Origin: Planctomycetota bacterium
Lineage (GTDB): Bacteria; Planctomycetota; UBA8742; UBA2392
DNA length: 64,000 nt
Reading direction: 5' to 3'
NCBI GenBank assembly: GCA_020848275.1
Contig: JADLAK010000044.1
Coordinates: forward strand, 62,001 to 126,000
Shown: positions 39,912 to 61,868 of the stretch, one piece after another
How positions within the stretch are numbered: position 1 is the first letter of the stretch
Layout of the letters: each line of letters opens with the position of its first letter
Notes under the pieces: model-generated
Seen by the model: only the letters and a program-made list of their open reading frames with translations
Database searches by the model: none
What the model was told of the DNA's origin: nothing
Program-made: the position numbers and the translations under genes

Positions 39912-42260
39912 TTGAAGGACATGCGCAAAACGCGGGCATTTGCGGTGCTGTTGATCATCGGCGCGCTGGTCGCGCTCTGGATCTTCTTGGCGGCGCCGCG
40001 CGCAGCCCGCAACGTTCTAAATGAACCGCCCGTCGACGAGGTCGCCTCCGCCTTACAGCCGCCCGGTAAGAACCCGACTGTACGCCCTTCACCTGATCGC
40101 GCGCCACAGAAGACAACCGACAAGCCCCCCGCGCTGGACCGGCCCGAAGACCCGTTCATGCTTGAACAGCCGCTGTGGAAACCCGATTACGGCGACAAGT
40201 TGAAACGTGCGGGTTGCAAGGCGGAGTTTGAGGTCCGCGACGCCAAGGGCAACCCGCCGGATGTCGAGAACTTCTTCTACGTCGACGTCTGGCGCAAACT
40301 CGGTTCCTACTACTCAGAAGAGCAAGGCCGGCTGGACAAGGCGACAGGCAAGATCATCTGCGACGGCTGGAGAGTGCGCAGCGGCGAACAGGGCGTCGGC
40401 CTGGAGCCCGGCGACTACGAAGTTCATGCCTGCTACGGCAAGTACGGCTGCGCCTTGGCCGAGTTCAGCGTGACGCCGGGCACGGTGACCACCGGCAGCC
40501 TCACGTTGCCGCATTACCAGCGCACGATCACGCTGCGATTTTTGGACCAGGCGGGGCAACCTGTTCCCTACCTCTTGCAGAACGAACTGCACGGCGCGCC
40601 AAGAGTAGACACGGAACTCGAGAACGACCTTCCCAGGCATACCTTCGGCGGGCCTCGGGCCGCCTTGCGTGATCCGCCGGGCATCGATCCCGGATCCTGG
40701 AACGGCGGCAGCGGGGCTTCAAGCAGCGATTACCGGCACCTGCCTGCCGGCAAAATTCCCCTGACTGACGGCAAGCTCTCGCTGACGGTTTTCGCGGGCG
40801 TGTCAAACACGATCACAATCCCATTGCTGCCCGAAATCTGGGGCCGGGAAACCCTGACCATCATGGATGCGACGTTCACCGGTCCGGAATGGGACGATTA
40901 CGTTGTCAACCTCGAGCTTGCGCCCGATTTCCTTGAGAAGCTCAACGCAAAGCGCGAAGAGTACGATGTATATCCGGTGATCCAGCCCAAGGACATCGGC
41001 GTGCGCAAGCCATACACGCGCAGGTTCAAGGTGCGGGCTGACCCGGCGGATATTCCGCCCAAGCCCGATTTGCGCGACGTGTCGAAACTCGCGCCCGATT
41101 ATTGCCGTTTGCTGCTGCGCTGCCTGGGGCGTGAGGGCCTATTCCCGATCGTCGACTCGACCAGCCACAAGGAACGCTTCCTCGGCGCGCCCAACCCCGA
41201 CAACCTTTGGGTGTTCGAGTTCCCTGCGACAAGCGTCGTGAAAGTCGTCTGGAGCGATGGCAGGCTCCTGTCTTCACAGCCGCAAACCATTGAGCTGGCA
41301 GGCGCGCGCCTGAACGAAACGACCCACGCCGTCAACGAACACCCGGTGTCATGCCACACGCGCATGCCGTCGCCGACGCTGGCGGCCCAGTGCATCGACT
41401 TGCAACTCAACACCCTTTCGGCAACTGCACAGGCCACACTGTGCGTCGAGCCCGGTATGCCCTTGGCTGATTCCCACCTGTCGCCGCCCGGGGCAAATGT
41501 TTTTGGCGGACGACGCCAGGCAGCGTACGCCACGCGCGCCGACGACTTCTTTGTCTTTGAGGGATCTGTCGACGATGCCATGGCTTCGGCCATGGACAAA
41601 CAAACTGTTTGGCGCTTACGGGGCTGGGGTGCGGGGCGAAGGGACAAAGACTTTTATGCCCTGCGCCTTAACAGCACGTTGACGCGGGGCATAGAACCGC
41701 TGGAGCTGCTTGCCACCACCAAGGGCACGGGATCACTGCAGCCGACACTGCAGCCCCTGCGCCCGCTGCTGGCCCTGCGGGCCGTCGGCACAACTTGCGG
41801 CGGCCTGCCCTGGGTGCAGGGCGTGGTGGTGAGCTACGAACAGGACGAGTTCAACCGCGCCATGCGCCGCCGCATCGTCTCGCAGGAAATCCAACCGGCG
41901 CTTGGCGAAAAGGACGCCGCGGGCAAATACCTTTCGAGTGCACACTTCAAGCAGACAACCGACAGCGATGAGGCTTTGCGCGCGTTGATGGGCGAGGCCA
42001 ACTACGACGCCTTCGATTCGCGCAGCCAGCGCGAGTTCTTCTTTCGCCACGGGACCTGGTACGACACGCAACTCACGGTTGCTTCGGATAGCCACGGCTA
42101 CATCGCCGCCGACTACGCCGACATTAAACCCGGTAAACGCTACGTGCTGTACCTGTGGTCGAACTCGCGCGACGACATCAAGCCGGATCTGCGCATCGAC
42201 TTCATCGCATCTGAAGGCTGCACCGACCTCGGCGCCGTGATCTTGCCCGAGTATCGCTGA
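39912..42260 (+). CDS. Membrane-anchored extracytoplasmic protein of unknown function
   Basis: 782 residues from a TTG at 39912, which has AGGGGGTGG seven bases upstream; an ATG three codons on is the alternative. An N-terminal anchor AFAVLLIIGALVALWIFLAA is followed by a Pro-rich linker (to about 80) and a large soluble region with several beta-sandwich-like stretches: CKAEFEVRDAKGNPPD, LEPGDYEVHACYG and SVTPGTVTTGSLTLPHY read like carboxypeptidase-regulatory or SpaA-like folds. Scattered cysteines suggest disulfides. The C-terminus (LRIDFIASEGCTDLGAVILP) has the same beta character. An ExbD-like gene follows after 64 bases on the same strand. I recognise no catalytic motif. Confidence 0.6.
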   Translation: MKDMRKTRAFAVLLIIGALVALWIFLAAPRAARNVLNEPPVDEVASALQPPGKNPTVRPSPDRAPQKTTDKPPALDRPEDPFMLEQPLWKPDYGDKLKRAGCKAEFEVRDAKGNPPDVENFFYVDVWRKLGSYYSEEQGRLDKATGKIICDGWRVRSGEQGVGLEPGDYEVHACYGKYGCALAEFSVTPGTVTTGSLTLPHYQRTITLRFLDQAGQPVPYLLQNELHGAPRVDTELENDLPRHTFGGPRAALRDPPGIDPGSWNGGSGASSSDYRHLPAGKIPLTDGKLSLTVFAGVSNTITIPLLPEIWGRETLTIMDATFTGPEWDDYVVNLELAPDFLEKLNAKREEYDVYPVIQPKDIGVRKPYTRRFKVRADPADIPPKPDLRDVSKLAPDYCRLLLRCLGREGLFPIVDSTSHKERFLGAPNPDNLWVFEFPATSVVKVVWSDGRLLSSQPQTIELAGARLNETTHAVNEHPVSCHTRMPSPTLAAQCIDLQLNTLSATAQATLCVEPGMPLADSHLSPPGANVFGGRRQAAYATRADDFFVFEGSVDDAMASAMDKQTVWRLRGWGAGRRDKDFYALRLNSTLTRGIEPLELLATTKGTGSLQPTLQPLRPLLALRAVGTTCGGLPWVQGVVVSYEQDEFNRAMRRRIVSQEIQPALGEKDAAGKYLSSAHFKQTTDSDEALRALMGEANYDAFDSRSQREFFFRHGTWYDTQLTVASDSHGYIAADYADIKPGKRYVLYLWSNSRDDIKPDLRIDFIASEGCTDLGAVILPEYR

Positions 42261-43589: not shown

Positions 43590-44924
43590 TCAAACGCCCG
43601 CAACCTCCCGCGCCAGCGCGCGCAGTTCTCCCGCAAGATAGGTCGAGCCGGTCACCAGCACGAGCCCCGACTTGCCCGCAATTCCCAACGCATTCTGGAA
43701 CGCCGCCTGCGGGCTTGCCCCGATGCTGCCGGCGCGACCGCCGAATTTCTGGTACAGCGTGATCAAATCTCGCGGGTCGCTGGCGCGGGGGCTGTTGTAG
43801 CCGGTGAAGATGCAGGCGTCGGCGCCCGCAAGCACGCCCGCGCAGGCCTCAACGTCCTTGTCCCTGGCAATGCCCGCAACCAGCACCACCGGGCCCTTCA
43901 CATTCAGCGCGCGCGCCGTCGCCAGCGATGCCTTGAGGCTGAGTTCGTTGTGCGCGCTGTCGATCACAATCGTCGGCGCACCGCCGAAAATCTCGAAGCG
44001 GCCCGGCAGCGGCGTCGTGAACAGCGCCTTGCTGACTTTCTCGCGGTCCAGCACGTCAATGATATCGGGGTCGCTCGCCATCACCTCCAGCGCGCACAAC
44101 GCGTGGCAGGCGTTGTCGGCCATGAAGCGCGCCGGGTTGTTCAGCCGCACGTCGTAGCGGTGCTCGCGAATCGCCGCCGTGAAATGAATCATTCGGCCCT
44201 CGCGCTGAAACGCCCGCGCCTCGTAATCCTTGCCGAAAACAATCAGCGGCGCCTCTTCGTCGCGCGCCGTCAGCGAAATCACGCGCTGCGCTTCGGGAAG
44301 TTGCGCGCCGCAAACCACCGGCACGCCCGGCTTGATAATGCCGGCCTTTTCGCGGGCGATTTCTTCGATCGTGTCGCCAAGCTGCTGGGTGTGATCGAGG
44401 CCAATTTCAGTAATGACGGTCACCAGGGGATTGACGACGTTGGTCGCGTCCAGCCGCCCGCCCAACCCGACCTCGAACACCGCGACCTCGACCTTGGCCT
44501 GCGCAAAAGCCACCATCGCCGCCAACGTCAGCACCTCAAAGAATGTGACGTTACCCGGGCCTTTTTCGCGCGCCTTGACCACGGTGCGAAAGGCCTTCAC
44601 CAGGTCCTTGTCGCTGATTTCCCTGCCCCCGACTTCGATGCGCTCGTTCAGGCGTTCAAGGTGGGGGCTGGTGTAGAGACCCACTTTCAAGCCCTGGCTC
44701 GCCAGCGCCGCCGCAAGAAAACGCGAGGTGCTGCCTTTGCCCTTGGTGCCCGCGATGTGCGCGCAGGGATAGCCGAGGTCCGGCCGGCCCGCGGCATTCA
44801 GCAGTTCGACCATGCGGTCGAGATCGAATGTCTCGCGCGTGCGGCCGCCCAGTTGGCGCTCATAGTCGGTATGGGCGCTCAAATAGGAAAGAACATCGTT
44901 GAGGGTGTTAATGCGGGTGGCCAC
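43590..44924 (-). CDS. folC: Folylpolyglutamate synthase / dihydrofolate synthase
   Basis: Mur-ligase-family enzyme adding glutamate to dihydropteroate and folates. 444 residues, normal length. Visible motifs: HIAGTKGKGSTSRFLAAAL (P-loop), GLYTSPHLERLNERI, FEVLTLAAMVAFAQ, VFEVGLGGRLDATNVV, ITEIGLDHTQQLG and IDSAHNELSL (normally DGAHN; here DSAHN). It is transcribed with xseB. The divergent gap to the plus-strand gene at 45073 is occupied by a family 3 palindromic element ending seven bases from its start codon. Confidence 0.95.
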   Translation of the reverse strand: MATRINTLNDVLSYLSAHTDYERQLGGRTRETFDLDRMVELLNAAGRPDLGYPCAHIAGTKGKGSTSRFLAAALASQGLKVGLYTSPHLERLNERIEVGGREISDKDLVKAFRTVVKAREKGPGNVTFFEVLTLAAMVAFAQAKVEVAVFEVGLGGRLDATNVVNPLVTVITEIGLDHTQQLGDTIEEIAREKAGIIKPGVPVVCGAQLPEAQRVISLTARDEEAPLIVFGKDYEARAFQREGRMIHFTAAIREHRYDVRLNNPARFMADNACHALCALEVMASDPDIIDVLDREKVSKALFTTPLPGRFEIFGGAPTIVIDSAHNELSLKASLATARALNVKGPVVLVAGIARDKDVEACAGVLAGADACIFTGYNSPRASDPRDLITLYQKFGGRAGSIGASPQAAFQNALGIAGKSGLVLVTGSTYLAGELRALAREVAGV

Positions 44925-45072: not shown

Positions 45073-45813
45073 ATGGCCAAACCTGTCATCGGCATTTGCA
45101 TGGATTTCATCGCGGACAGCGCACCCAGCGGCCGCGACCGCAGCTACCTCAAGCTCTACCCGCAATACCCGCAAGCCGTCGCGCGCGCGGGCGGCATCCC
45201 CGTCGCGCTGCCGATTCTCGACGACGTTGAAACTCTGCGCCCGCTGCTTGGCATGCTCGCCGGCGTGGTTTTGGTCGGCTCCGACGACTACCCGCCGCAA
45301 TGGTACGGCGAAGAACCCGACCCGACGGTCGAGCTTTGCACGCCGCAGCGTTACGAGTTCGACCGCAAATTCGTCGCCATGCTTTATGCGACGGACCTGC
45401 CGGTGCTCGCGATCTGCGGCGGCATGCAGATGACGGCGATCCACCACGGCGGCGCGTTGATCCAGGACATCGCCAAGCTTGGCGGCGCCGTGAAGCACCG
45501 CGACCCCAACGCCAAACAATCGCCGCGCCACGAAATTGCAATCGAGCCGAACTCGAAACTTGCCGAGGCGCTGGGCGCGACCGCCTGCACCGTCAACAGC
45601 CTGCACCACCAGGCCCTGCGCGCGCCGGTCAAGGGCTGGCGCGTGAGTGCGCGCGCGCCCGACGGCGTAATCGAGGCCATGGAAGCGCAGGATCACCGCT
45701 TCCGCATCTGCACGCAGTGGCATCCCGAGCGCATGGGCGACGATGCGGCGATGCAGCGGCTGTGGAAAGCATTTGTGGCGGCTAGTTCGATTGCCGCGCC
45801 ATGCAGCGCTTGA
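45073..45813 (+). CDS. Class I glutamine amidotransferase-like gamma-glutamyl hydrolase (PuuD/peptidase C26 type)
   Basis: 246 residues. The fold starts PVIGICMDFIAD; the nucleophile is the Cys of LAICGGMQMTAIHHGG; the dyad is completed by QWHPERMGDD (His and Glu). VNSLHHQALRAP is the substrate-loop signature of gamma-glutamyl-GABA hydrolases and related C26 peptidases. No polyamine or folate gene adjoins except folC on the other strand, and hydrolysis of gamma-glutamyl bonds would suit either pathway. The last 32 bases overlap the 3' end of the converging gene, an unusual arrangement. Confidence 0.88.
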   Translation: MAKPVIGICMDFIADSAPSGRDRSYLKLYPQYPQAVARAGGIPVALPILDDVETLRPLLGMLAGVVLVGSDDYPPQWYGEEPDPTVELCTPQRYEFDRKFVAMLYATDLPVLAICGGMQMTAIHHGGALIQDIAKLGGAVKHRDPNAKQSPRHEIAIEPNSKLAEALGATACTVNSLHHQALRAPVKGWRVSARAPDGVIEAMEAQDHRFRICTQWHPERMGDDAAMQRLWKAFVAASSIAAPCSA

Positions 45814-48634
45814 TGGTCGTGCGCAGGTAGAGCGCATCGGCCCGCGCAACCGCATCCTTGGGCCTCATCTCGTTGAGTGTTGCCAGCAGGCGCAGGCCCA
45901 GCATGTAGTCGTCGGTCGAGTTCAGGCCGTTGTATTGCGGCCGGTAGCCGCGCGGGAAGAACGCCTGGCGCGACTCCAGGTCCTCGAAGTCGTCGTAGCC
46001 GGTGCGGGCCGTGGGCAAGTCACTGGCAATCACGAAGACCGCAAGCCGCCAGCAATTGCCGTGCATCTCCGGCGCGCGCAGCAGCTTGGGCCAGTTGTCG
46101 GGGATGGCGCCGGTATTGGACGTCTGCAGGAAGCTGCCGAAAATACCCGCAAGCCCCTCATGGGCCGGGTTGCGCATCAACAGCGCCGGGTTGACGTCCT
46201 TGAGTTCGGGCGACATGGCAAAAATTTCGTCCAGTCCCGCACCGGCAACGTAGGGCACGTACTGGTTCTCGACATAGGTCGCCAGGTCGGCGGCGTTGCC
46301 GAACTCGATGATGTCCTTGCGCGCAAACGCATATTCAGCCACCGGCGCGGCCTCCCACTGCGATTGCACCATAGGGCTTGCGGCTTTCATCCAGCAGCGC
46401 GCCGCCAGCGTGTCGTCTTTGCCCTTTTGCGCCAGCACCGCAGCAAAGCTGATCACGCGCACCGAACTTTCGGCGCCAAAAGGCGGGACAGGGTTATAGA
46501 GCAGCAGCTTTGCAGCGTCGGAATATTGGCCCGCACGGGCAAGGCAGCGTGCGCAATCCATCAGCACGCCGGAATGAATCACCTCGGGGATGCCCGCCGC
46601 AAGACGGCTGTCGGCAAGGCGGCGCGCGGCGTCGTCGCCGGTGTCGGCAAGGCGCTCAGCCCAGATCACGGGGCGAAGGTCGAGCTGGCCCTGGTTTTTG
46701 GCAAGCCAATCGGCGACTTCCTTCAGGTTCACGGGCTTGAGCTGGTTGAGGCGAGCGCGCAGCACCGTGGCGCGCGTCTCGACGGCGCCCAGCACCGCCA
46801 GCAGTTTCTTGTTGAATTGCTCGCCCAGGTTCCCGTCGCGGGGGTTCTGCTTGATGCGGCCCGCAAGGTCGGTGATGGCGTCGAGCGTCGTCTTGAGCGC
46901 CTTGCTTTCGGCGCTCTCGACGTTGAGGACTTCCTCGAGTTCCTCGGGCGTTGCGGAAGCCGCGATCATTTCCGGCAACGCCCACACGACTGTCTTGAAT
47001 GTGGCAAGCACGTCGGGCCGCGCGCTGAGCGTGTAATAAGCCGACTCGTTGTAGCGGTGGTAACCGAAGGGATGGATGCCCGCCGCGGTGCGCATGCGCT
47101 GGCGGTCAAAAATGTTGGCCGCAACGAAGCCCGCACGCGGCGCGAGCCCAAGCAAGCCTTTGCGCTGGCCCGCCGCGGGGGCGCTGCCGCCGCCTTCAAG
47201 GCCCTTGGCGACGTCGGCGAGGTCGAGGCCAATCAGCGCGTTTTCGACCCACAGCGTGTCCCACGATTGCAGCCCGCCGGCCTCAAAACCGTCAAGACGG
47301 CTGGCTTCGCGCAGATATTCGCGCGCCAGGTCATTCACGCCGTTGGAAGCCAGCCAGAAACCAAGGCAACCCACGGGCACCGACTCGCCTTCGCCCTTGG
47401 GACCGAATTGCAGGCGCAGTTCATTGAACTCGGCGGCGCCGGCCTTGGGATCTTTGCGGTAGAGGTTGAGCGCGCCGGTAAAAATGCGGTTCAGCACCTG
47501 GTCCTGCAGGCGCGTCTGCGCGCCAAGCATCATGCCGTTCCAGACCGCGAGGTTTGCGTTGTCGCGCAGGTCGCGCAGCGGCCCGGTGCGCGCCTCGGCC
47601 GATTTGCCCTGCGCCGCCAGCGCGCGCGCGAGGATGTCCAGCAGCGCCACGTCCTGGCCCTGGAGTTGCAGCGCCTTGCGTGCGGCGGCTTCGGCATCGG
47701 CGGGCTTGCCCGCGGCGAGGTCAGCCAGCGCGACGATGCGGGCTGTCAGCAGCGCGTCCCACAGTGTGATGCGCGTCTTGGCCTCGAGCTTCGTGCGTTC
47801 TTCGATGGCGCCGCGGAAGGCGTCGACGGCGGCGCGCGCCTCGGTCGTGGCCTTGATGGCGGCGTCGAGATTCGCCCTCGCCTTGGCGGCTCGCCGGGCG
47901 TCGGCGGCCATTTCATCCAGCAGCCGCTCAAGCCCCGGCAGGTCGGTGATGTACCAAACCGGCGTGACGCAAAGGCTCGAGAACGGCTCGGTCTTGGCCG
48001 ATCCCGTGGCGGCGGGCGCAGCGACTTCCTTTTTGGGCTCGGCGGGTTGCCAGGCTTTTACCTCGTCCCACGAGCGGCTGTCCTGGACCTGGTAGGGATA
48101 ACCCGCGGGCCCGTTCAAAATCGCCTGGCGATAAGCGGCGAGCGCACCCTCGAAATCGCCGGAAAGCCACAGCAGGTCGGCCTCGTAGCGCACCAGCGTC
48201 ATCGAGTCCGGCCCGCGCAGGCGTCCCTCACGCACGACTTCGAGCGCTTCCTTCAGTTGCCCGAACGTCACCAGCAGCCGTGCGGCGCGCGCGAAATCAC
48301 GCGCCTGCACCGCCGACTTCAGCGACGCGCGCAAAATCGCCATCGCCGCGGGCGCGTCGCCGCGCTTGAGGCATAGCGCCGCGCGCAACGACGCATACCA
48401 GCGCGGCAGTTCGCCGCTGACGCGTGAATCGCCCTCGATGGCGGCAAGGCGCGCCTCGGCGCCGGCGTCGTCGTCGTACAGCCACGCCTTGCGGATTTCA
48501 TTGAGCTGGAACGAAAGCGGCGGCGCCGACGCAGCCTGGCCGTCAACGGGCGTGCGGGCCGCGGCAATCAGGCCCAGCGCCGCAAGCAGCATGACGCGGC
48601 ACAAGCGACTCGCGACTCGCGACACAGCCGTCAT
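45782..48634 (-). CDS. Large exported TPR-like protein of unknown function
   Basis: 950 residues. A signal peptide (MTAVSRVASRLCRVMLLAALGLIAAA to the GQA region) is followed by an almost entirely alpha-helical protein rich in Ala/Leu/Arg. TPR-like pairs include WYASLRAALCLKRGDAPAAM, ARLLVTFGQLKEALEVVREG and ADLLWLSGDFEGALAAYRQA in the first 200 residues. No catalytic motif, membrane segment or cysteine pattern is seen. It is the last gene of the kinase-DUF2064-HEAT-TPR operon and starts inside the stop of the upstream gene (four-base overlap), so translation is probably coupled. Its 3' end overlaps a converging gene by 32 bases. Confidence 0.75.
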   Translation of the reverse strand: MTAVSRVASRLCRVMLLAALGLIAAARTPVDGQAASAPPLSFQLNEIRKAWLYDDDAGAEARLAAIEGDSRVSGELPRWYASLRAALCLKRGDAPAAMAILRASLKSAVQARDFARAARLLVTFGQLKEALEVVREGRLRGPDSMTLVRYEADLLWLSGDFEGALAAYRQAILNGPAGYPYQVQDSRSWDEVKAWQPAEPKKEVAAPAATGSAKTEPFSSLCVTPVWYITDLPGLERLLDEMAADARRAAKARANLDAAIKATTEARAAVDAFRGAIEERTKLEAKTRITLWDALLTARIVALADLAAGKPADAEAAARKALQLQGQDVALLDILARALAAQGKSAEARTGPLRDLRDNANLAVWNGMMLGAQTRLQDQVLNRIFTGALNLYRKDPKAGAAEFNELRLQFGPKGEGESVPVGCLGFWLASNGVNDLAREYLREASRLDGFEAGGLQSWDTLWVENALIGLDLADVAKGLEGGGSAPAAGQRKGLLGLAPRAGFVAANIFDRQRMRTAAGIHPFGYHRYNESAYYTLSARPDVLATFKTVVWALPEMIAASATPEELEEVLNVESAESKALKTTLDAITDLAGRIKQNPRDGNLGEQFNKKLLAVLGAVETRATVLRARLNQLKPVNLKEVADWLAKNQGQLDLRPVIWAERLADTGDDAARRLADSRLAAGIPEVIHSGVLMDCARCLARAGQYSDAAKLLLYNPVPPFGAESSVRVISFAAVLAQKGKDDTLAARCWMKAASPMVQSQWEAAPVAEYAFARKDIIEFGNAADLATYVENQYVPYVAGAGLDEIFAMSPELKDVNPALLMRNPAHEGLAGIFGSFLQTSNTGAIPDNWPKLLRAPEMHGNCWRLAVFVIASDLPTARTGYDDFEDLESRQAFFPRGYRPQYNGLNSTDDYMLGLRLLATLNEMRPKDAVARADALYLRTTIKRCMARQSN

Positions 48635-51441
48635 GGCAGCGTCTCCAGCACGTAGGTCTTCTTGACGCTATCCCACTGGGCGAGCGCGCGGCGCGCGGAC
48701 CACCAGTTGCGCCAGTCGCCCTCGATGGGCGCCGAGAACTTTTCCGCCACCAGGTGGCGCGGGAAGAAGCGCCGGCCGTTGGCGGGCAAAAAAGCGCCGA
48801 CATCCAGCGGCCCCGCGCGCACGATTTCAGGGCTGCCCCAGCGCGAACGCATGATGAAGTTTGCCGAACTGCCGCCCAGCGCAATGCCGTAGTCGTTGCC
48901 AAAACCGTCCAGCAGGCGGCGCAGCGCACTCACGTCGCCCGTCATCGCCGCACGTTCCATCAGCAATGCGCCCTGCACCGGCGACGCCATCGCCTGCATC
49001 TCAAACACCGTCAGCGGCCGCGAGCCCGCCACAAGTTGCAGCCACACGCGGGCGAACTCGATGGTCTCGAAGTCGCGCCCGTCTTTCTGCGGCGTGAATT
49101 TTTCAAAGATCGCCTTGGCTCGCTCCGGCTCGCCGAGCATGGCCGTGATCATCACCTGCGAGGGCGAGCGCGGCGAAGGCGATGCTGCGTCGCCGTACAG
49201 CACGCCCAGCACATCGACGCCGCTGCGCACAAGGCTCAGGGTGCGGCCGGGGTCGGCCCACAGTTGCGCGCTGTCCTGGTTGTCGTGGATCAGCGCCGTC
49301 AGCAGGATCTTGGCCGCGGGCGCGGGCAGCGGGTCTTCGACCATGAAATCAAGCGCGCCGATGCGGTTGAGGTTCTCGGGCTTTTCGAACATCACCGGCA
49401 GCAGGTCGGCAAGCTTGACTTTGCCGCCGCGGCCCGCCAGCACCGCCGAGATCACCGAATAAAACTCGGGTGCCGCAAACCCGCGCTTCAGCGCGTCCTG
49501 GCGGAACTGCTCGCCTTGCGGCGTGGCACTGTAGGCAATGGGCACGGACAGCCCGGAGCCGATGGGGTCGGAGACCGCGCCGGTGAAGCGCGCGATCCAG
49601 TTGTCGATAAGCGGCCCGTCGCGGCCCGCAAACACCAGCGCAATGATGGCGTCCATGCGGCTGGCGTCGTCGAGGTCGGCGGCGACTTCCTCAAGCAGCT
49701 TGAAGCCCTCATCGTTTTTCATCGTCAGCAAGCGGCGCAGCAGCACGAAATCGGAAAGCGTGAATTGCGCGCGCAGCAGGTTGTCGAGCGTCGTGCGTGA
49801 CGCAAGCGCGGCGGCAGCGGCGCCCGCCGACCACGCGCCCGCGGGCGTTGAAGGATCGCGCGCCAGCACCATGACCGCCAGCGTGGTCTCGGGCCGCGTG
49901 ATCTCGCGCTTCCAGCGCGCCTTTAGCGCGTTTTCGGCGGCAGGGTCGCGGCTTTCAACCAGCACATCAAAGAGGAAGGGACGCACGCGCAGATTGGGCG
50001 AATCGACGCGGGCAATGAACTGCTTGAACTCGGCGGGAGCGGCCTTGGGCAGCAGGTCGGCCATGCCGCGCAGGGCCTCGAGCATGTGCGGCGCCGTGTC
50101 TTCAAACTTGATCGCACTTTTGGCCAGCGCCAGGGCGCTGCTGTTGGCGCGGCAGCAAGCCAACAGGCGCGCCGAGGCCGTGCGCAACGCGAAGTTGTCG
50201 CCTTGCGCGAGCTTGCAGAAGAAGGGCTGGAAGACTTTCAGGTCGCGCGGCGAAAACCACCACGATTCCATCACCGCAAGCTGCGCCGAAAGCGGCAGCG
50301 CGTCGAACACGTCGATCACGTCCTGCGCGGGCGCACCCGCGGCATAAGCGCGGGCGGCGACACAGACGCCGCTCTCGCCGCTGTCGCTGGCCAAGGCCGC
50401 GGTCAGGGCTTGCTCAAGCTGCGCGGAAAGTTTGCTGCGCGCAAGCAGTTCAACGTAGGCCACGCGCGTGCGAGAATTCATGCTGGCATAGGGCAGCACG
50501 CGCGACTGGCGCAACTCAGCCTCCGTGACGGCCGGCGCAAGCGAAAACGCCACCGCGGCGCGCATGTTGTCGAACTCGGCATCTTTCTGCAGGGGATCGG
50601 CCGGGTCGGGCGTAAGCGCCGCCAGGCATTCCTTGCCCACGAAACTTCCGCGCAAAGCACGCGCCGTCGAAACCGCCCAATCGCCGTCCTGGCCGCCAAG
50701 GACCGGGTCGGCCTTGCGCCCCGCGCAAGCAAGCGCGAGCACCGTGTGGCGCGCCTTGCCCGGGGGCAGCAGGCGAATCAGGTCCATCAGGCCGCGACCG
50801 TGGCCGCTGACCGGACCCTCGTGCAGTGCAGCGCCCGCAAGCACCAGCGCCTCGCCGTAACCCTCGGCTCCTTCGATCGACTTACAAAGCTGCGCCGCCG
50901 GGTAGCGGTTGGTGCGCGGCGCAAGCTGGCGGAACACCGTGGCCCAAAGCGGCGTGAGGCCCGGCACCGCGCGGCTTTGCAGCAGTTCCAGCATCGCCTC
51001 GGTGTCGCTGGACGAAAGCTTTTCCTTCAATTCCTGGATCGACATGCCAAGGCGCTTGGCCGCGAGGAACAAATCGGCGTTGTCCTGGCTCAGCATTTCG
51101 TCGAGGATGCGGCAGCGGTGGGCAATTTCGTCGTCGTCGTGTTTTTGGCCCTCGCGCACGAGTTTCAGCGCATAAGCGCCGAACTTCGCCAGTTCACTCA
51201 TGGCGCGGTCGCGCGCGGCCAGCGTCGGCGCGCCAAGTTGCTCGATCAGGCGTTCAATCTGGTCCGCCTGCTCCGGCGAAGGGTCCTTGGGCTCAACTTT
51301 GGCCGCGGGCGCGGGATCAGCGGGCACCTCGCGTGAGCTGCTTTTCACGACCATTTTGCCGGCGGCCGGTTGCGGCGACGCCACGAGCGCAAGGCCCGCG
51401 ACGATTGCGGCAACGACGGTGGTGGGTCGCAACCATTTCAT
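48631..51441 (-). CDS. Large exported HEAT-like repeat protein of unknown function
   Basis: 936 residues from the ATG at 51441 (MKWLRPTTVVAAIVAGLALV, signal peptide ending near PAAGK). An upstream in-frame extension overlaps the previous gene and is unlikely. Shortly after the signal comes IERLIEQLGAPTLAARDRAM and SELAKFGAYALKLVREG, the paired-helix unit common in Planctomycetota exported proteins (L-x-x-L-G-x-x-x-x-x-x-R-x-x-A-x-x-x-L). The rest is helical with HEAT-like spacing and no catalytic motif. It is followed by a four-base overlap with the TPR gene and preceded by the DUF2064-like gene with an 11-base gap. Confidence 0.78.
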   Translation of the reverse strand: MKWLRPTTVVAAIVAGLALVASPQPAAGKMVVKSSSREVPADPAPAAKVEPKDPSPEQADQIERLIEQLGAPTLAARDRAMSELAKFGAYALKLVREGQKHDDDEIAHRCRILDEMLSQDNADLFLAAKRLGMSIQELKEKLSSSDTEAMLELLQSRAVPGLTPLWATVFRQLAPRTNRYPAAQLCKSIEGAEGYGEALVLAGAALHEGPVSGHGRGLMDLIRLLPPGKARHTVLALACAGRKADPVLGGQDGDWAVSTARALRGSFVGKECLAALTPDPADPLQKDAEFDNMRAAVAFSLAPAVTEAELRQSRVLPYASMNSRTRVAYVELLARSKLSAQLEQALTAALASDSGESGVCVAARAYAAGAPAQDVIDVFDALPLSAQLAVMESWWFSPRDLKVFQPFFCKLAQGDNFALRTASARLLACCRANSSALALAKSAIKFEDTAPHMLEALRGMADLLPKAAPAEFKQFIARVDSPNLRVRPFLFDVLVESRDPAAENALKARWKREITRPETTLAVMVLARDPSTPAGAWSAGAAAAALASRTTLDNLLRAQFTLSDFVLLRRLLTMKNDEGFKLLEEVAADLDDASRMDAIIALVFAGRDGPLIDNWIARFTGAVSDPIGSGLSVPIAYSATPQGEQFRQDALKRGFAAPEFYSVISAVLAGRGGKVKLADLLPVMFEKPENLNRIGALDFMVEDPLPAPAAKILLTALIHDNQDSAQLWADPGRTLSLVRSGVDVLGVLYGDAASPSPRSPSQVMITAMLGEPERAKAIFEKFTPQKDGRDFETIEFARVWLQLVAGSRPLTVFEMQAMASPVQGALLMERAAMTGDVSALRRLLDGFGNDYGIALGGSSANFIMRSRWGSPEIVRAGPLDVGAFLPANGRRFFPRHLVAEKFSAPIEGDWRNWWSARRALAQWDSVKKTYVLETLP

Positions 51442-51452
51442 GCCCGGCTCCG

Positions 51453-52046
51453 CTATTCGGTGAACTTCTCGAACCATTGCCGCAAACGTTCGGCGGAGAA
51501 ATCGTCTTCGCCGTCTTCACTCAACACGCTCAGCCTTGCCACGCAATCTATTACGTTGAAGTCCCGCTCGTTGGATAGGCGGAACCACGACGGCAGCAAT
51601 TCGACCTCGGCCTCCGCGTCGGTCAACAGGTCCGTCAAGGCCGCCAGCGGTTCGGTCGACGCCAGCGCGTTGCACATGCCCTCTGTTAACGCGCGATCGA
51701 CGCTGGCGGACCACGCCAGAAGGTAAATTCCGCCGTCGGCGCAGGGGCCCAGCACGACGTCGGCTTCGCGCAGGATTTGCGGCAGGCTTTCCATCGCGGG
51801 CAGGGGCAGGCCCGGAACGTCGGTGAAGACCACGACCGCGGCTTCGTTGGGTTGCACGGACCCGCGCAAGTCAGCCGCTTGCAGGGGCTGTTGCGAGCCC
51901 AGGGGCAAACCCGCCGCGTGCAATACCTCGCGGCAATCCTCGATCAGCGCCTGTTCAAGCTGCTCAGCGCCGCTGGCGGGTGTAAAACAGCGCCGACGAA
52001 CCATGTGAGCCCGTGGACGCCTCGGTTTACTGAGTTTGTCAGCCAA
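51453..52046 (-). CDS. DUF2064-like (glycosyltransferase A fold) protein, N-terminally shortened
   Basis: 197 residues from a TTG at 52046, three bases after the kinase stop codon; an ATG at 52004 gives 183. The middle carries VVVFTDVPGLPLPAM and ADVVLGPCADGGIYLLAW. These match the family pattern in which D-S-P-x-L-P and D-V-V-L-G-P-x-x-D-G-G-Y-Y-L form the nucleotide-sugar site. The usual N-terminal F-x-K-x-P-x-P-G-x-V-K-T-R-L segment is not visible, so nucleotide binding may be lost. Position between a Ser/Thr kinase and two exported scaffold proteins suggests recruitment to a new role. Confidence 0.65.
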   Translation of the reverse strand: MADKLSKPRRPRAHMVRRRCFTPASGAEQLEQALIEDCREVLHAAGLPLGSQQPLQAADLRGSVQPNEAAVVVFTDVPGLPLPAMESLPQILREADVVLGPCADGGIYLLAWSASVDRALTEGMCNALASTEPLAALTDLLTDAEAEVELLPSWFRLSNERDFNVIDCVARLSVLSEDGEDDFSAERLRQWFEKFTE

Positions 52047-52049
52047 GTT

Positions 52050-55040
52050 TTACCCGATCGTCCTGGGCAACCAGTCTTTGACCCGGCCCTTGAGCAGGCG
52101 CAGCACGCCCGCGTCGTCGCGTTTGGAAAGCTTGTCCAGCATCGGCTCCACAAGTTTGCGGTCGGGGTCGAAGTCGAGCGTCGAAACCGCCACCGCATAG
52201 TCGATGAACGCCTGCACCGCCGTGCCGCCGCGCCACAAGGCGTCGTGTTCGGGCAGGGCGCGGGCCATGCCGCGGCGGAAAGCCTCAATGTGGCCCTCCA
52301 TCTCCGTGGGCCCGCCGACGCTTGTGAAAAGCGTGGCCAACAATACGACGGCGTCGTGGCGCGGGTTGGCGCCGCCGACACGCGAGAGTTCCTTGATATC
52401 GGCGTTCAGCGTTTGCCAGGCGGTAAATCGTGCCTGCGCGTCGCCGCCGGCGCGGCGTTCCTGCTGCGAAAGCAGGCGCAAAGCGCGAATCCAGAGCTTG
52501 CCCTCGGTGTCAGCGACGGGCTCGGCGATGGCCAGCATGGTGTCGCTCGTCTTGAGGTCGCCCTGCATGCGCGCCAGCCAACTGGAATGGACAAACACCG
52601 GCAACAGCGGTTTGCGGTCGATGCCGTTGAGCGCCGCCAGCCGCATGCCGGCGTCAATCAGTTCCGGCGCGGCAGGCTTGGCATCGTCCAGCGCGGCGCG
52701 GCCCAGCGTGACCTCAGGCAGGCGCAGTTCAAACAGCGTGCGCAGGGAGCCCGCATAGGCGTCGGGAAACGACGCATAGTTGCCGTCACGCAGGCCGCGC
52801 AGCGCAACCAGCGCCCGCGTGCGAAGCTCAAGCGCGTCCGCGGCCTTGGGATCATCGGCGAGTTTCAGTCGCAGGCGCGAGCCCTCAAGCACCGCCGCAC
52901 AAATCAGGTAGGCGTCGGGCGCCATGTCGCCCGCGACGAAGTCGTAGTAGCCGATCGCACGCGCGGCGTCCTCGCCTTTGGCCAGCGTCGCGGCATGCGC
53001 CAGCGCGGCATGGAACGCGCGGCTGGCAAGGTCGCCGCTGGTGCCCGCGTAGCGCACGGCCTGGCGCATCTGGAACAACGCTGTGCGGTCATCACCGCGC
53101 TCGGCCAATATCTGCGCGCTAAGCATGTACGAACGCGCAAGCGTGCGCGGGCTGGTCGTGGGCTTGTTGAGTTCGGCCAGTTCCGCCAGCGCATCCTGCG
53201 TCTTGCCCATCGCCTGCAGGCAGCGGGCGCGCATCAGCCGCCAGTTGGCGCGCGCTTCCGGGTCTTCGCCCTCGACCACCGGCGCCGAGAGGCGCGCCGC
53301 CAGCCGGAACTCGGCCTCGGCGTATGCCCCGACAGAAAACAACAGCGCCTCGGCGCCGCGTGCGCTGTCGCGGTGGCGGATGGCGACGTCACGGATCGAC
53401 AGCGCCGCGGCGTCGGCCGAAAACGCGAAGCGCCGCCGGCCCTCGACCAGCGCCGGGAAGTCGTCATCAAAGTTCGCCACCGCCACGGTCAGTTCGCCGG
53501 GGTAGGAGCGAAGTTCAAAGCGCAGGTTTTCCGCCGCACGCGTCACTTTCACACGATACCAGCCTCCGGCCATCAGCAGTTGCGGCTGCGCAATGGCGCT
53601 ACCCGCGTACATGGGCACGCCAAGGCGGCGAATCTCGAAGCGTTGCGGTGCGTGCGCGCCCAGCACGATGCTGTAGGCCGGCTCATTCAGGCGCGGCGGC
53701 GCGCCCTCGGCGGGCTCCGCCGGCAGACCGATCAGCAGTGCGACCTCGCCTTTGGCGTCGCGCACCGAGAGATTGGCCTCAAGCTCGAAATCGCCCCAGC
53801 ACAGGTCGTCGCGGTGCGCAAGGCTGATCGGCGCCTCCGAGGTACGCGTCAACACCAGTTCCCGGTTGGGTCCAAAGGCCATCGCCGCGCCGGCCGTCAC
53901 CCAGTCTTGCAGGCGTTTGGGATCGTCGGTCGCCGTCGCCACGGGCTTCCAGATGTCGCGTTCCGGCAGCAAATCGCCGGTGTTGCTGCGGCGCGAGGGC
54001 GGGTCGAGGCTGGTCCAGACGATGCCGCCGCCAAGCGCCAGCGCGATGATGATCACCGCCGCAACCGCGGCGTAGCGCCGCGCGCGGAAGAAAGCTTTCT
54101 GCACCCAACTGCGGCTGCGCGCGATCACCCATTCGCCGGCCATGAAACGTTCGAGATCGTCGGCCAGCGATTGCGCCGTGTCGTAGCGTTTGGCGGGGTC
54201 GTTCTGCATTGTCATTTCGACGACGGCGCGAAGGTCGGCGGGAATGACTTCAATGTCGCCGCGCGTCCAACGCGGGCCGGGGGACTCGGCGACCTTCATC
54301 ATGATTTCGTAGGCGCTTTCGCCCTCGGCAGGGCGGCGGCCCGTCAGCATCGAATACAGCGTCGCGCCCATGGCGTAGATGTCGCTGCGCTTACCAAGGC
54401 GATGGCGCTCGCCACGCGCCTGCTCGGGCGACATGTAGGCGGGCGTGCCCATCGAGACGCCGGTTTGCGTGAGTTGCGCGCTTTGCGACAGGTCCTGCGC
54501 CAGGCCGAAGTCGGTCAGCACCGGCGTGCCGTCCTTCTTGATGAAGACGTTGCCGGGCTTGATGTCGCGATGGACGAGTTCTTTGCGGTGCGCCTCGCCT
54601 ACGGCGCGCGCGATGACTTCCATGATCGAGGCCGCTTCGTCCGGCGCGAAGTTGCTGCGCCGAAGCTTGGCCTCGGCGTCTTCACCCTCAAGGTACTCCA
54701 TGGTGAAGAAGGGATGGCCCTCGAGTTCGCCGGCCTCGTAGACACGCACGATGTTGGGGTGCGCGAGCTTGGCGACGTTTTCGACCTCGCGCCGAAAGCG
54801 CGTGAGCGTGTCGGCGTCTGTGATTACCGTCGAGGGCAGCAGCTTGAGCGCGACGGGACGACTGAGGTCGGTCTGCCAGGCACGGAACACGCGGGCCTGG
54901 CCGCCGCGCGGAAGCTCGCGCTCGATGATGAAATGGCCTAACTCCTGCCCGACCTTGGGCAAGGGACGCAGCGGCGGCAACTTACGTGTGTCCTTGGCTT
55001 CTTCCACTACAAGGGCCTCAATGCGTGACGAATCACCCAT
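52050..55040 (-). CDS. Transmembrane Hanks-type Ser/Thr protein kinase with large extracytoplasmic TPR-like region
   Basis: 996 residues from the ATG at 55040. The kinase domain is at 35-300: glycine loop GHFIIERELPRGGQARVFRA (third glycine replaced), VALKLL with Lys66, LVHRDIKPGNVFI with Asp159, TDFGLA with Asp177, GTPAYMSPEQARGE, and RSDIYAMGATLYSMLTG. All catalytic residues are kept, so it should be active. One membrane helix (about 323-343) leads into 650 extracytoplasmic residues. These comprise a beta-sandwich-like segment (about 400-560) and then TPR-like helices (e.g. ARCLQAMGKTQDALAELAEL). It is the first gene of a four-gene operon. Domain order resembles planctomycete sensor kinases with C-terminal repeats. 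Confidence 0.92.
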   Translation of the reverse strand: MGDSSRIEALVVEEAKDTRKLPPLRPLPKVGQELGHFIIERELPRGGQARVFRAWQTDLSRPVALKLLPSTVITDADTLTRFRREVENVAKLAHPNIVRVYEAGELEGHPFFTMEYLEGEDAEAKLRRSNFAPDEAASIMEVIARAVGEAHRKELVHRDIKPGNVFIKKDGTPVLTDFGLAQDLSQSAQLTQTGVSMGTPAYMSPEQARGERHRLGKRSDIYAMGATLYSMLTGRRPAEGESAYEIMMKVAESPGPRWTRGDIEVIPADLRAVVEMTMQNDPAKRYDTAQSLADDLERFMAGEWVIARSRSWVQKAFFRARRYAAVAAVIIIALALGGGIVWTSLDPPSRRSNTGDLLPERDIWKPVATATDDPKRLQDWVTAGAAMAFGPNRELVLTRTSEAPISLAHRDDLCWGDFELEANLSVRDAKGEVALLIGLPAEPAEGAPPRLNEPAYSIVLGAHAPQRFEIRRLGVPMYAGSAIAQPQLLMAGGWYRVKVTRAAENLRFELRSYPGELTVAVANFDDDFPALVEGRRRFAFSADAAALSIRDVAIRHRDSARGAEALLFSVGAYAEAEFRLAARLSAPVVEGEDPEARANWRLMRARCLQAMGKTQDALAELAELNKPTTSPRTLARSYMLSAQILAERGDDRTALFQMRQAVRYAGTSGDLASRAFHAALAHAATLAKGEDAARAIGYYDFVAGDMAPDAYLICAAVLEGSRLRLKLADDPKAADALELRTRALVALRGLRDGNYASFPDAYAGSLRTLFELRLPEVTLGRAALDDAKPAAPELIDAGMRLAALNGIDRKPLLPVFVHSSWLARMQGDLKTSDTMLAIAEPVADTEGKLWIRALRLLSQQERRAGGDAQARFTAWQTLNADIKELSRVGGANPRHDAVVLLATLFTSVGGPTEMEGHIEAFRRGMARALPEHDALWRGGTAVQAFIDYAVAVSTLDFDPDRKLVEPMLDKLSKRDDAGVLRLLKGRVKDWLPRTIG

Positions 55041-56623: not shown

Positions 56624-58135
56624 ATGGCAAAACTTTGGTCATTGGCCTTGGCGCTGTTGGTCGGCGCCGGGTGTTGGGCGGCGCCGGTGTCGGCACAGTC
56701 CAGCAAGGTTGAAGAACTCGAGCGCGAGATCAGCACCCTGCGCTCGGAAGTGGACACACTCAAGAAGGTCGAACGTGAAGGACAGGGCGGCGACCCCGCC
56801 GTGATGACGTCGCTGAAGAAGCACGTGTTTGCCTGGGCGACCGAAGACGGCAAGTTCAGCTTCACCATGAACTTCCGCGTCCAGGTCCGCCTGACGTACA
56901 ACGACGAGCGTGGCGATGACGTTGAAGATCCCACCTCGGGCGCCACCAACGGCAAGGACTACACCCATTTCAACATCCGCCGTTTCAAGTGGTCCGCCAG
57001 CGGCAACATCTTTGAAAAAGAGTTCAAGTACATGTTCGTTGTCCGCCTCAACGCGGGCTCGAGCGACAACATGATCGAAGACGTGGTCTTCACGTGGGCG
57101 AAGTACCAGTTCCTCAACGTGAGCGCGGGCCAGGTCAAGGTCCCGTTCAACCACAGCTTCATGACCAGCTCCGGCGCCCAGCAGTTCGTTGACCGCTCCA
57201 TCGTCAGCGACGTGTTCAACCAGGGCTGGGGCAAGGGTATCTGGATCAATGGCACCATCGGCGAGACTGTGCCGTGGGTCAAGTACTGGTTCGGTATCTT
57301 CAACGGCGTCATCGCCAACACCGCCGGTGACTTCCGCAACAGCGACCAGACCATCCGCAGCCAGACCTTCAGCAACTTCGTTGATGCCGACCTGTTCCCC
57401 GCCCTCCGCGTCGAAACCCACCCCCTGGGTGAAGTTCCGGCCGGCATGACGGACATGCGCGGCGCTGACGAGTACGACAAGGTTCTGTTCTCGGTCGGCC
57501 TCGCTCTCAACTGGCTGCAGGGCCGCTTCAACAACTCGGCTCTGTACTCCGACGGCGTCGCTCCTGGCGCCCCGGGCTCGGGCCGCTTCCGCACCGCGTT
57601 TGACACCATCGCCCTCACGCTCGACGGTCACTTCCGTTGGCACGGCTTGAGTGTCAACATCGAGTGGATTTGGCGCCACACCAACTTCCACAACACCGGC
57701 CTGCTGGAAGGCAACAACATCACCCGCGGCCGCAACCGCCCGGGCGACATGGACGACAACGGCTTCCTGTTCGAAGTCGGCTACTTCATCCTGCCCAAGC
57801 AGTTGGACGTTGCTATCCGCTGGGCGGACGTGAACGCTGACGAGTATTGGGCCGGCGGCACCACCAGCAAGCCCTTTGCTCTGCGTCCTGACAGCAGTGA
57901 ACTCGGGCTGTGCGTCGGCTACTACATCGCCGGCAACAACCTGAAGATCCAGATGGACTTCACCTACATCAGCCACCAGCTCGCGTTCTTCACGGCGACC
58001 AGCTCGGGCGGTTCTCTCGGCAGCTCGCCCAACGGCGACAGCTTCGAGAGCCGCAGCCTCACGAGCCTTGCCAACGAGACCTCGGACTGGACCAACGTGT
58101 GGCAGCTCCGCATCCAGCTCCAGTGGATCTTCTAA
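56624..58135 (+). CDS. Outer-membrane porin (OprO/OprP-like) with periplasmic coiled coil
   Basis: 503 residues. A signal peptide (to about 24, PVSAQ) is followed by a short coiled coil, KVEELEREISTLRSEVDTLK, as in porins tethered to peptidoglycan, and then a beta-barrel. Alternating strands appear throughout (FSFTMNFRVQVRLTYND, FNIRRFKWSASGNIF, KYMFVVRLNAGSS). FNIRRFKWSASG matches the R-R-x-R/K-x-x-x-x-G region of phosphate-selective porins O and P. The chain ends in aromatic WIF, the outer-membrane insertion signal. Codon choice is strongly biased (few rare third positions, frequent AAC, TTC, ATC). The promoter, Shine-Dalgarno and terminator are all strong, so it should be abundant. Substrate selectivity is inferred only. 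Confidence 0.85.
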   Translation: MAKLWSLALALLVGAGCWAAPVSAQSSKVEELEREISTLRSEVDTLKKVEREGQGGDPAVMTSLKKHVFAWATEDGKFSFTMNFRVQVRLTYNDERGDDVEDPTSGATNGKDYTHFNIRRFKWSASGNIFEKEFKYMFVVRLNAGSSDNMIEDVVFTWAKYQFLNVSAGQVKVPFNHSFMTSSGAQQFVDRSIVSDVFNQGWGKGIWINGTIGETVPWVKYWFGIFNGVIANTAGDFRNSDQTIRSQTFSNFVDADLFPALRVETHPLGEVPAGMTDMRGADEYDKVLFSVGLALNWLQGRFNNSALYSDGVAPGAPGSGRFRTAFDTIALTLDGHFRWHGLSVNIEWIWRHTNFHNTGLLEGNNITRGRNRPGDMDDNGFLFEVGYFILPKQLDVAIRWADVNADEYWAGGTTSKPFALRPDSSELGLCVGYYIAGNNLKIQMDFTYISHQLAFFTATSSGGSLGSSPNGDSFESRSLTSLANETSDWTNVWQLRIQLQWIF

Positions 58136-59389: not shown

Positions 59390-60643
59390 ATGGGTTCGAC
59401 GCCGGTTGCCATCACCGGGCTGGGTTTGGTAAGCGCCGTCGGCGCTTCCGTCACCGCGTTGCGCGCGGCGCTCGACCGCGGCCAAAGCGGCCTGAGGCGC
59501 CTCACGCTCTTCGAAAGCGAACTGGCATCCGAGTTCCCCGTCGGCCAGTACGACGGCGACCTCGTGGCCGACTTCGCCTCCGTCCGCCGCAAGCTTGGCG
59601 CGCGAGAGATCAAACGTCTCTCGCGCTCGGACCTGCTGGCGCTCTGCGCCACGGCCCAGGCCGTCAATCAAAGCGGGCTGGCCGACGCCGCGCTATCGCC
59701 CGCCGGCGTTTACCTGGGCCACAGTGTTTGCGGCACAAACCGCAGCGAAGCCTACTACATTGACTGCTTCAGGCGCGCCCAGGACGGCCGCGAACAAACC
59801 CGCGCCGGCATCGCCAACCTGATGGTCCACGAGGCCGCGCAAAGCGTCGACGCGATCGCGCGCGAATATGGCCTGTGCGGGCCCAGCACGTCGCTGATGA
59901 CCGCGTGTTCCTCGGGCGCAAACGCCATCGGCCGCGCCGCGTGGCTGATCCGCCAGGGCCGCGCCGATGTGATGATCGCGGGCGGCACCGACAGCCTCTC
60001 GCGCATCACGCTCAACGGCTTCAACGCGCTGCAGCTTGTCGCCTCGGACGGCCCGCGACCCTTTGACGCCGAGCGCAAGGGCATGACCGTCGGCGAGGGC
60101 GCGGGCGTCCTCGTGCTGGAATCCCTCGATCACGCGCGCAAGCGCGGCGCGAAAATCCTTGCGCTGCTCTCGGGTTATGGCCATTCCTGCGACGCCCACC
60201 ACCTGACCGCGCCGCACCCGCAAGGCGCGGGCGCATTTGCGGCGATGAAATCCGCGCTGATCGACGCGGCGTTGCAACCCGGCGACATCGGCTACGTCAG
60301 CGCCCACGGCACCAGCACGCCCGACAACGACAAGACCGAAGCGCTCGCGGTCTCGCGCCTTTTTGGCGAAGGCGCGGTCCCGGTCAGTTCGACGATGCGT
60401 TTCTTCGGCCACGCGCTTGCCGCCAGCGGCGCGATCAAAGCCGTCGTCTGCGTCGACGCGATCCAACGCCGCACGCTGCCGCAGAATCTTGGCCTGCGTA
60501 CGCCGCTGACGGAATCTCGTCTAGACCTCGTGCGTGAGCCCCGTGCGGCGGCCAACTTGCGCCACGTGATTTCGAACAGCTTTGGCTTTGGCGGCAACAA
60601 CGCCGTGCTGGTGTTTTCGAGGGAATCAGGGCCCGCTGCGTAA
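59390..60643 (+). CDS. Beta-ketoacyl-ACP synthase (FabF-like), active-site lysine replaced
   Basis: 417 residues, thiolase-fold condensing enzyme. The Cys-His-His triad is present: Cys173 (LMTACSSGAN), His306 (VSAHGTSTPDND) and His341. The last motif reads SSTMRFFGHALAASG, where condensing enzymes have S-T-K-S-x-x-G-H-x-x-G-A-A-G. The conserved lysine is a methionine (336) followed by arginine, and the following glycine is altered too. SNSFGFGGNNA is normal. It is followed after 79 bases by a second synthase that lacks the triad, so the two look like a KS-alpha/KS-beta pair. The stop codon lies inside a palindromic element. Confidence 0.93.
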   Translation: MGSTPVAITGLGLVSAVGASVTALRAALDRGQSGLRRLTLFESELASEFPVGQYDGDLVADFASVRRKLGAREIKRLSRSDLLALCATAQAVNQSGLADAALSPAGVYLGHSVCGTNRSEAYYIDCFRRAQDGREQTRAGIANLMVHEAAQSVDAIAREYGLCGPSTSLMTACSSGANAIGRAAWLIRQGRADVMIAGGTDSLSRITLNGFNALQLVASDGPRPFDAERKGMTVGEGAGVLVLESLDHARKRGAKILALLSGYGHSCDAHHLTAPHPQGAGAFAAMKSALIDAALQPGDIGYVSAHGTSTPDNDKTEALAVSRLFGEGAVPVSSTMRFFGHALAASGAIKAVVCVDAIQRRTLPQNLGLRTPLTESRLDLVREPRAAANLRHVISNSFGFGGNNAVLVFSRESGPAA

Positions 60644-60707
60644 GCGGCGGGGCAGAGAACATGGACGTGCAATACTTCCGGCCCCGCCGCTAACGCGGGC
60701 GGGCTCC
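60629..60707. repeat. Palindromic element, family 5 (GCGTAAGCGGCGGGGC)
   Basis: The left arm GCGTAAGCGGCGGGGC and the right arm GCCCCGCCGCTAACGC are complementary in 15 of 16 bases. A related word, GCCGCCGCTTACGCGGC, is at about 63274. The TAA stop of the upstream synthase gene is in the left arm, and the element fills the whole gap to the next gene of the same operon. Confidence 0.65.
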
Positions 60708-60722
60708 GAAGTCGAGGCAATT

Positions 60723-61868
60723 ATGGCTGCGATAATCACCGGCGTAGGCGTCGTGAGCTCCCTCGGAGCTGATCCCGTCTCGTTCGCCAAGGGTCTGCGC
60801 GGGGGGCGCTCCGGCTGCGCGCTGCACGACTTCGAATATTTAGGCGGCCGCAAAGTCAGTGCGCCGGCGTATCTGGCAATGCCCGCTGACGCCAAAGGTT
60901 TGATCGACCCCAAAAAGCTGCGCCGCATGGACCGCTTATCGCGCATGTGCGCGGTTTCCGCGCGCCAGGCGCTGGCGATGGCAGGTATTGACGCGTCAAC
61001 GCTCAACCCGGCGCGCACCGGCGTCGTTTTCGGCACCGCCTTTGGCGCCATGGCGACCACGCAGGCGTTTGTGGACAGTTGGCTCAAGCAGGGCGAACGC
61101 CACGCAAGCCCGCTCAACTTCATGAACTCCGTACACGGCATCATGGCCAGCCTGATCGCGCTCGACCTTGGCATTACCGGCGTCAATCTCACGCTCAGCC
61201 AGCGCGACCTGAGCTTCGAGGGCGCGCTCGTGACGGCCCTCGAAATCCTCGAGAGCGGCGAGGCCGATACCTTGATCGTGGGTGCGGGCGACGAACTCAC
61301 GCCGCTGCTTCACGATTTCGGCGCGCGCGTGCACTACGTCAACCTCGACGCCGCAAACGCCCGCGGTCTCGACCCCTTCGCGCCCACCGACCCGACGGTG
61401 CCGGGCGACGGCGCGGCAGTGATCGTGCTTGAACGCGCTGACAGCAAACGCAAGCCGCTGGCGAAGTTCGAAGCCGCGGCGATGGGACGGCTTGGCAAGA
61501 CCGACCTTGCGGCGAAGCTGCTTTCGAGCGATCTGCGCTCGATAATTTCGCTGGCGACCACCAACCGCGGCGGCAGTAAACGTGCGGCGGCGCATTTTGC
61601 GCGGCGCGAAAATGCGCTCGATGGTTTGCTTGGCCGCGAGCTTGTTAAACTGACGCATCGCGGCAACTTCGGCGATTCGCCTTCGGCGGGCGCGTTGCAG
61701 TGCGTTGCCAACGTGCTGATGCTGTCGGGCGGCGAGGTGTTTGCGCCGCTGGCGGCGGGCGAAATTCGCCGCGACCTCGTCGCGGGCGTTGCCGCCCCCA
61801 CCGCGATCCTGCACGACGCCGCCAGCGTTTCCGGCACCCACGCGGCGTATGTGTTGACGCAGGCATAA
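60723..61868 (+). CDS. Chain-length-factor-like ketoacyl synthase without catalytic residues
   Basis: 381 residues with the ketoacyl synthase fold (IITGVGVVSSLGADP, GVVFGTAFGAMATTQAF, NSVHGIMASLIALDLGITG, TLIVGAGDE, PGDGAAVIVLER). The nucleophile region reads LTLSQRDLSFEGA: the cysteine is gone (Asp162 in an ungapped alignment, Gln160 two residues earlier). The first histidine motif (AHGT) is replaced by ATTNRGGSKR and the second (KSxxGH) by HRGNFGDSPSAG. It cannot condense by itself. Such proteins act as chain-length factors that form heterodimers with an active KS in type II polyketide, aryl polyene and related systems. The immediate upstream KS is the obvious partner. Confidence 0.85.
   Translation: MAAIITGVGVVSSLGADPVSFAKGLRGGRSGCALHDFEYLGGRKVSAPAYLAMPADAKGLIDPKKLRRMDRLSRMCAVSARQALAMAGIDASTLNPARTGVVFGTAFGAMATTQAFVDSWLKQGERHASPLNFMNSVHGIMASLIALDLGITGVNLTLSQRDLSFEGALVTALEILESGEADTLIVGAGDELTPLLHDFGARVHYVNLDAANARGLDPFAPTDPTVPGDGAAVIVLERADSKRKPLAKFEAAAMGRLGKTDLAAKLLSSDLRSIISLATTNRGGSKRAAAHFARRENALDGLLGRELVKLTHRGNFGDSPSAGALQCVANVLMLSGGEVFAPLAAGEIRRDLVAGVAAPTAILHDAASVSGTHAAYVLTQA

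Follow-up and report, generated by a model that had tools for sequence, protein, structure and literature searches.

The 64-kb window analyzed here, the whole stretch of Planctomycetota DNA under study, contains on its minus strand four genes encoding, in this order, a transmembrane Ser/Thr kinase, a DUF2064-like protein, a HEAT-type protein, and a TPR-type protein. The set is kept throughout one GTDB family and was not found beyond it, suggesting a sensing system of the cell envelope that is private to this family. Tentatively, and giving it slightly less than an even chance, we interpret the set as a family-specific sensing module composed of the kinase, an exported HEAT/TPR pair, and a cytoplasmic DUF2064-like protein.

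Architecture of the locus and its products

Re-derivation of the four genes from the window sequence reproduced the coordinates, strand, and spacing given in the initial annotation (Table 1). The kinase gene and the DUF2064-like gene are separated by 3 nt, and 11 nt lie between the latter and the HEAT gene, counted to the ATG at position 51441. If translation began instead at the in-frame ATG farther upstream, at 51477, the HEAT gene would overlap the DUF2064-like gene; the HEAT product is about 936-948 aa long. The HEAT and TPR genes share a 4-nt ATGA overlap, and the TTG start of the DUF2064-like gene is backed by alignment of orthologue N-termini. This tight spacing, leaving no intergenic room, suggests that the four genes are co-transcribed. 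Long antisense frames lie on the plus strand opposite the kinase and DUF2064-like genes (51777-54941) and opposite the TPR gene (45743-48376), and opposite-strand open frames reach 877 and 1054 aa. These are probably shadows of GC-rich coding DNA. It is the minus-strand frames that conservation identifies as the genes.

Table 1. Features of the four-gene locus (window coordinates; residues are those of the respective protein)
Feature	Coordinates	Strand	Basis
Transmembrane Hanks-type Ser/Thr kinase, 996 aa	52050..55040	-	Pkinase E 1.6e-43; catalytic residues kept
Kinase catalytic domain, residues 37-293	54162..54932	-	Pkinase match; 68-73% identity to orthologues
Transmembrane helix, residues 325-341	54018..54068	-	Hydropathy peak 2.71; in all orthologues tested
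Ectodomain beta-sandwich, concanavalin/L-type-lectin-like, weakly PF06439-like, residues 377-558	53367..53912	-	AlphaFold2 model, Foldseek, PF06439
Ectodomain alpha-solenoid, TPR-like, residues 563-991	52068..53354	-	AlphaFold2 model; weak TPR matches
DUF2064-like protein, 197 aa, TTG start, without PGKVKTRL	51453..52046	-	PF09837 E 3.9e-10; motif compared with 3cgx
HEAT-type alpha-solenoid protein, predicted exported	48631..51441	-	Signal segment; AlphaFold2 pLDDT 81; HEAT_2 in 6/13 orthologues; alphaRep match
N-terminal HEAT-like module, residues 66-131	51085..51282	-	Most-matched part across Planctomycetota
C-terminal WW..RR.L motif and beta-hairpin of HEAT protein	48634..48714	-	Motif invariant in family alignment; model
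TPR-type protein, predicted exported, 950 aa	45782..48634	-	Signal segment; sub-threshold TPR_16/TPR_19; designed-TPR match E 1.8e-4

The kinase combines the catalytic Lys, HRD, and DFG elements of Hanks-type Ser/Thr kinases with a match to the Pkinase profile. Residues K66 and E85/E87 and the HRDxKPxN and DFG motifs are invariant or nearly so across orthologues, and judged by its sequence the kinase domain is intact. The gene is one of approximately 30 kinase-like loci in the source genome (35 matches, some of them split). A match to the PASTA kinase model NF033483 (E 5e-78, 263.5 bits versus a cut-off of 450) ends at residue 304, and no PASTA repeats were matched in the kinase in this search, which leaves the protein outside the PASTA kinases. 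The single strong hydrophobic segment, the same one in the orthologues, provides one membrane span between the kinase domain and a C-terminal helical repeat array.

The ectodomain is 29-38% identical to its orthologues, far below the identity of the kinase domain. The AlphaFold2 model obtained from 15 ectodomains (pLDDT 87, pTM 0.85) consists of a beta-sandwich and, C-terminal to it, a helical solenoid. Foldseek matches of the sandwich (E about 1e-5) are dominated by L-type lectins and also include CBM66 and B. subtilis 1oq1; for the lectin folds, the model-based target-normalised TM scores are mostly 0.5-0.64. PF06439 was found in two members (best E 0.002). As modeled, the sandwich is L-type lectin/concanavalin-like by fold, and the solenoid is TPR-like, a label resting on its fold and a weak sequence match. 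These fold matches favor a reading in which the kinase is a sensor of carbohydrates or envelope glycans, with the sandwich binding sugar and the HEAT and TPR proteins helping to present or transport polysaccharide, as does the presence of PF07396 porin-like genes divergently beside the kinase gene in several genomes. However, a concanavalin-like fold also serves without sugar binding, sequence identity to the fold matches is 9-16%, and porins are missing beside the locus in other lineages, so that we regard a glycan sensor of this kind as quite unlikely.

The DUF2064-like protein of the window matches PF09837 with 40.1 bits versus a gathering cut-off of 25.8, and all 15 family members match this profile at E up to 0.1. 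The central core with S/T-D-x-P and GPxxDGxxYL is kept, including D76, GP, and D104, and the profile match to 3cgx spans 111 positions. None of the 15 aligned members has the N-terminal PGKVKTRL of 3cgx. Because of this loss, the protein looks catalytically degenerate. A match to TIGR04282 (arsenosugar biosynthesis glycosyltransferase) scores 33.7 bits versus a cut-off of 134 and covers positions 89-151 only, so the protein is not assigned to that family. The conserved core and the match to 3cgx could also be taken to indicate an active nucleotidyl or glycosyl transferase, regulated by the kinase, for modification of the exported proteins; the missing motif and the short TIGR04282 match far under the cut-off make this very unlikely. 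A plasmid search gave no match to canonical DUF2064 proteins.

Both repeat proteins have a hydrophobic N-terminal segment, accompanied by an AxA-like site in most orthologues, and from this signal-like segment both are predicted to be exported. The HEAT designation in the initial annotation holds up on evidence from the orthologues and the model: Pfam gives no HEAT match in the window protein alone, HEAT_2 is matched in 6 of 13 orthologues, the family profile matches the artificial alphaRep HEAT proteins (E 8e-6), and the AlphaFold model (pLDDT 81) shows about 50 helices arranged as an alpha-solenoid. Thus, both the profile and the fold expected of a HEAT-repeat protein are found. Comparison of the model with PDB folds returned importins and CAND1 at non-significant levels (E above 1e-3, TM below 0.3). 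The N-terminal module (approximately residues 60-130) recurs in many otherwise unrelated proteins of the 392 Planctomycetota genomes; possibly, it represents a phylum-wide HEAT-like domain, one that has no Pfam match in the window protein. The 950-aa partner is a putative TPR protein, with a Pfam TPR score of 23.0 bits versus a gathering cut-off of 32.7 (TPR_16 and TPR_19, sub-threshold) and a short match of 42 positions to designed TPRs.

Several other genes of the window were noted. A Porin O/P-like gene (PF07396, E 1.3e-7) is located at 56624-58135 on the plus strand; in relatives from several genera, such genes are divergent upstream of the kinase gene and often in tandem. At 59390-61868 (plus strand), one beta-ketoacyl synthase gene directly follows another, and their frames overlap. 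The plus-strand gene at 39912-42260 encodes a 782-aa protein that has no Pfam match, adjoins an ExbD-like gene, and belongs to a family that is multi-copy in relatives.

Conservation of the gene set and gene order

Each of the four proteins is single-copy in 15 of the 16 genomes of the window's GTDB family, the records of which are metagenome-assembled genomes of uncultured Planctomycetota. Two genomes with a broken HEAT frame, interrupted by a contig end in G004 and by a frame break in G008, were counted as carriers. The remaining genome, G011 (84% complete), lacks all four genes and also a flanking gene that is 91% identical between its two genus mates. Co-loss of the four genes in G011 was rejected; because the flanking gene is missing too, an assembly gap is a simpler explanation and real loss is not established.

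In a sample of 392 Planctomycetota genomes, no full-length relatives of the HEAT protein were found in any other family, where matches are to the module at approximately residues 60-130 and to some HEAT-like stretches from the middle of the protein. In the same sample, the only relative of the kinase ectodomain outside the family is one 76-residue solenoid match, and a search to the class level for relatives of the TPR protein yielded only one marginal 63-residue match beyond the family. Since the genes are present in essentially all genomes of the family, their co-occurrence inside it carries little information.

All four genes are contiguous in nine genomes, including G002, in which approximately 1.6 kb separates the kinase and DUF2064-like genes. 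A tenth genome probably has the same arrangement, interrupted there by a contig break. The HEAT-TPR pair is never separated in the family genomes and forms the tightest link of the locus; the DUF2064-like and HEAT genes are adjacent in 13 of 15 genomes, and the kinase and DUF2064-like genes in 12 of 15. The kinase gene is located elsewhere in G001, G008, and G009, and the kinase-DUF and HEAT-TPR pairs are found on different contigs in G013 and G014. Thus, the kinase is separate from the HEAT-TPR pair in five genomes, yet it is always present. A substitute partner gene behind the displaced kinases was considered and rejected, as their neighbors are unrelated to one another.

The order and the ATGA overlap recur in relatives whose HEAT and TPR products are only about 35-38% identical, so the arrangement is more than chance. 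On the TPR side, the neighbors in the window are a FolC-like Mur ligase gene (43590-44924, minus strand) and a peptidase C26 gene (45073-45813, plus strand). The folC and C26 genes adjoin the TPR gene in only 8 of 15 genomes, and hence the linkage of the four genes is stronger than that of their surroundings. The SOD neighbor seen in the window was not observed in the other fetched regions of relatives. The simplest scenario is that the contiguous order is ancestral and would have been broken several times independently on the tree. Conservation of this order in other Planctomycetota had been proposed in the initial annotation as a check on its reading, which was to fall if no relative kept the order or if the repeat proteins occurred dispersed without the kinase; inside the family, the reading withstood this check.

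Possible function of the four-gene set

According to our preferred reading as a sensing module, the outer half of the kinase, with its lectin-like sandwich and TPR-like solenoid, would monitor something outside the inner membrane and control the cytoplasmic kinase domain. Both exported repeat proteins would work jointly on the far side of that membrane, and a role as client, scaffold, or reporter of the kinase may be the reason why they are produced along with it. For the DUF2064-like protein, we envisage a cytoplasmic location and, probably, a non-catalytic binding or regulatory role.

The locus was initially described as an envelope signaling or assembly system in which the ectodomain senses or binds the repeat proteins, and the DUF2064-like protein was given no role. 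The architecture of the products agrees with the signaling part, whereas the binding part is so far unsupported, given the kinase separations and the analysis of correlated evolution. Mirror-tree permutation tests gave P = 2e-4 to 1e-3, but genes simulated independently on the same tree show comparable residual correlation, and we therefore rejected these P values as evidence of interaction. For the ectodomain paired with the HEAT or the TPR protein, the residual correlation of rates is not above the simulated null, and in the same test the DUF2064-like gene has no residual correlation. The HEAT-TPR correlation is marginal, with 0.04-0.15 of simulations reaching the observed value. The 782-aa protein at 39912 was rejected as a fast-evolving control because it is multi-copy.

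The marginal excess for HEAT and TPR, the only one observed, and the departure of the kinase from a never-split pair both speak for a reading in which these two proteins operate on their own as an exported scaffold or assembly machine, and the kinase and DUF2064-like genes are co-located ancestral neighbors with another job. We consider this rather unlikely, since most genomes keep the kinase-DUF and DUF-HEAT adjacencies although protein identity is down to about 35% and the flanks vary.

Within the sensing module, binding of the HEAT and TPR proteins by the ectodomain is a plausible hypothesis and not more, since the correlations equal the simulated null. The kinase may respond to these proteins or, as its ectodomain consists of a beta-sandwich plus a solenoid of its own, to a glycan or other ligand. 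A more specific variant has in our estimate a low probability: a receptor-kinase system private to this lineage, with the exported HEAT and TPR proteins as ligand or gate for the lectin-like ectodomain and a repurposed, non-catalytic DUF2064-fold protein as cytoplasmic adaptor.

Membrane Ser/Thr kinases whose outer halves are rich in repeats are very numerous in Planctomycetota, and for most of them the signal is not known. The kinase described here, with its lectin-like ectodomain and the linkage of its gene to those of exported partners, provides a few candidate ligands that can be tested, in a four-gene set that is core to an entire family.

Comparison with known systems

The HEAT product shares an extended alpha-solenoid with the alphaRep designs, importins, and CAND1, and differs from them in its predicted export, its family-specific C-terminal motif, and the lack of a significant whole-fold match. 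The DUF2064-like protein has the S/T-D-x-P and GPxxDGxxYL core in common with the DUF2064/TIGR04282 family (3cgx); unlike 3cgx, the members described here are devoid of PGKVKTRL and carry their own conserved C-terminal RLS...DRLRxWFE beyond the profile match. The kinase resembles the PknB/Stk1 PASTA kinases (NF033483) in its kinase domain and one membrane span, but has no PASTA match.

The closest parallel is provided by membrane Ser/Thr kinases described in Ca. Uabimicrobium and Gemmataceae that carry TPR or WD40 arrays in the periplasm (PMC11032199); the main text of that study makes no mention of operons, gene order, or HEAT repeats. A cytoplasmic kinase domain, a single membrane span, and a C-terminal periplasmic repeat solenoid are common to these kinases and the one analyzed here. 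Since such kinases are already described and the source genome itself has about 30 kinase-like loci, the locus is a variation on a known kinase type. It is distinguished by the lectin-like sandwich located between the membrane and the solenoid, and by the linkage of the kinase gene to genes for two putatively exported solenoid proteins and a DUF2064-like protein.
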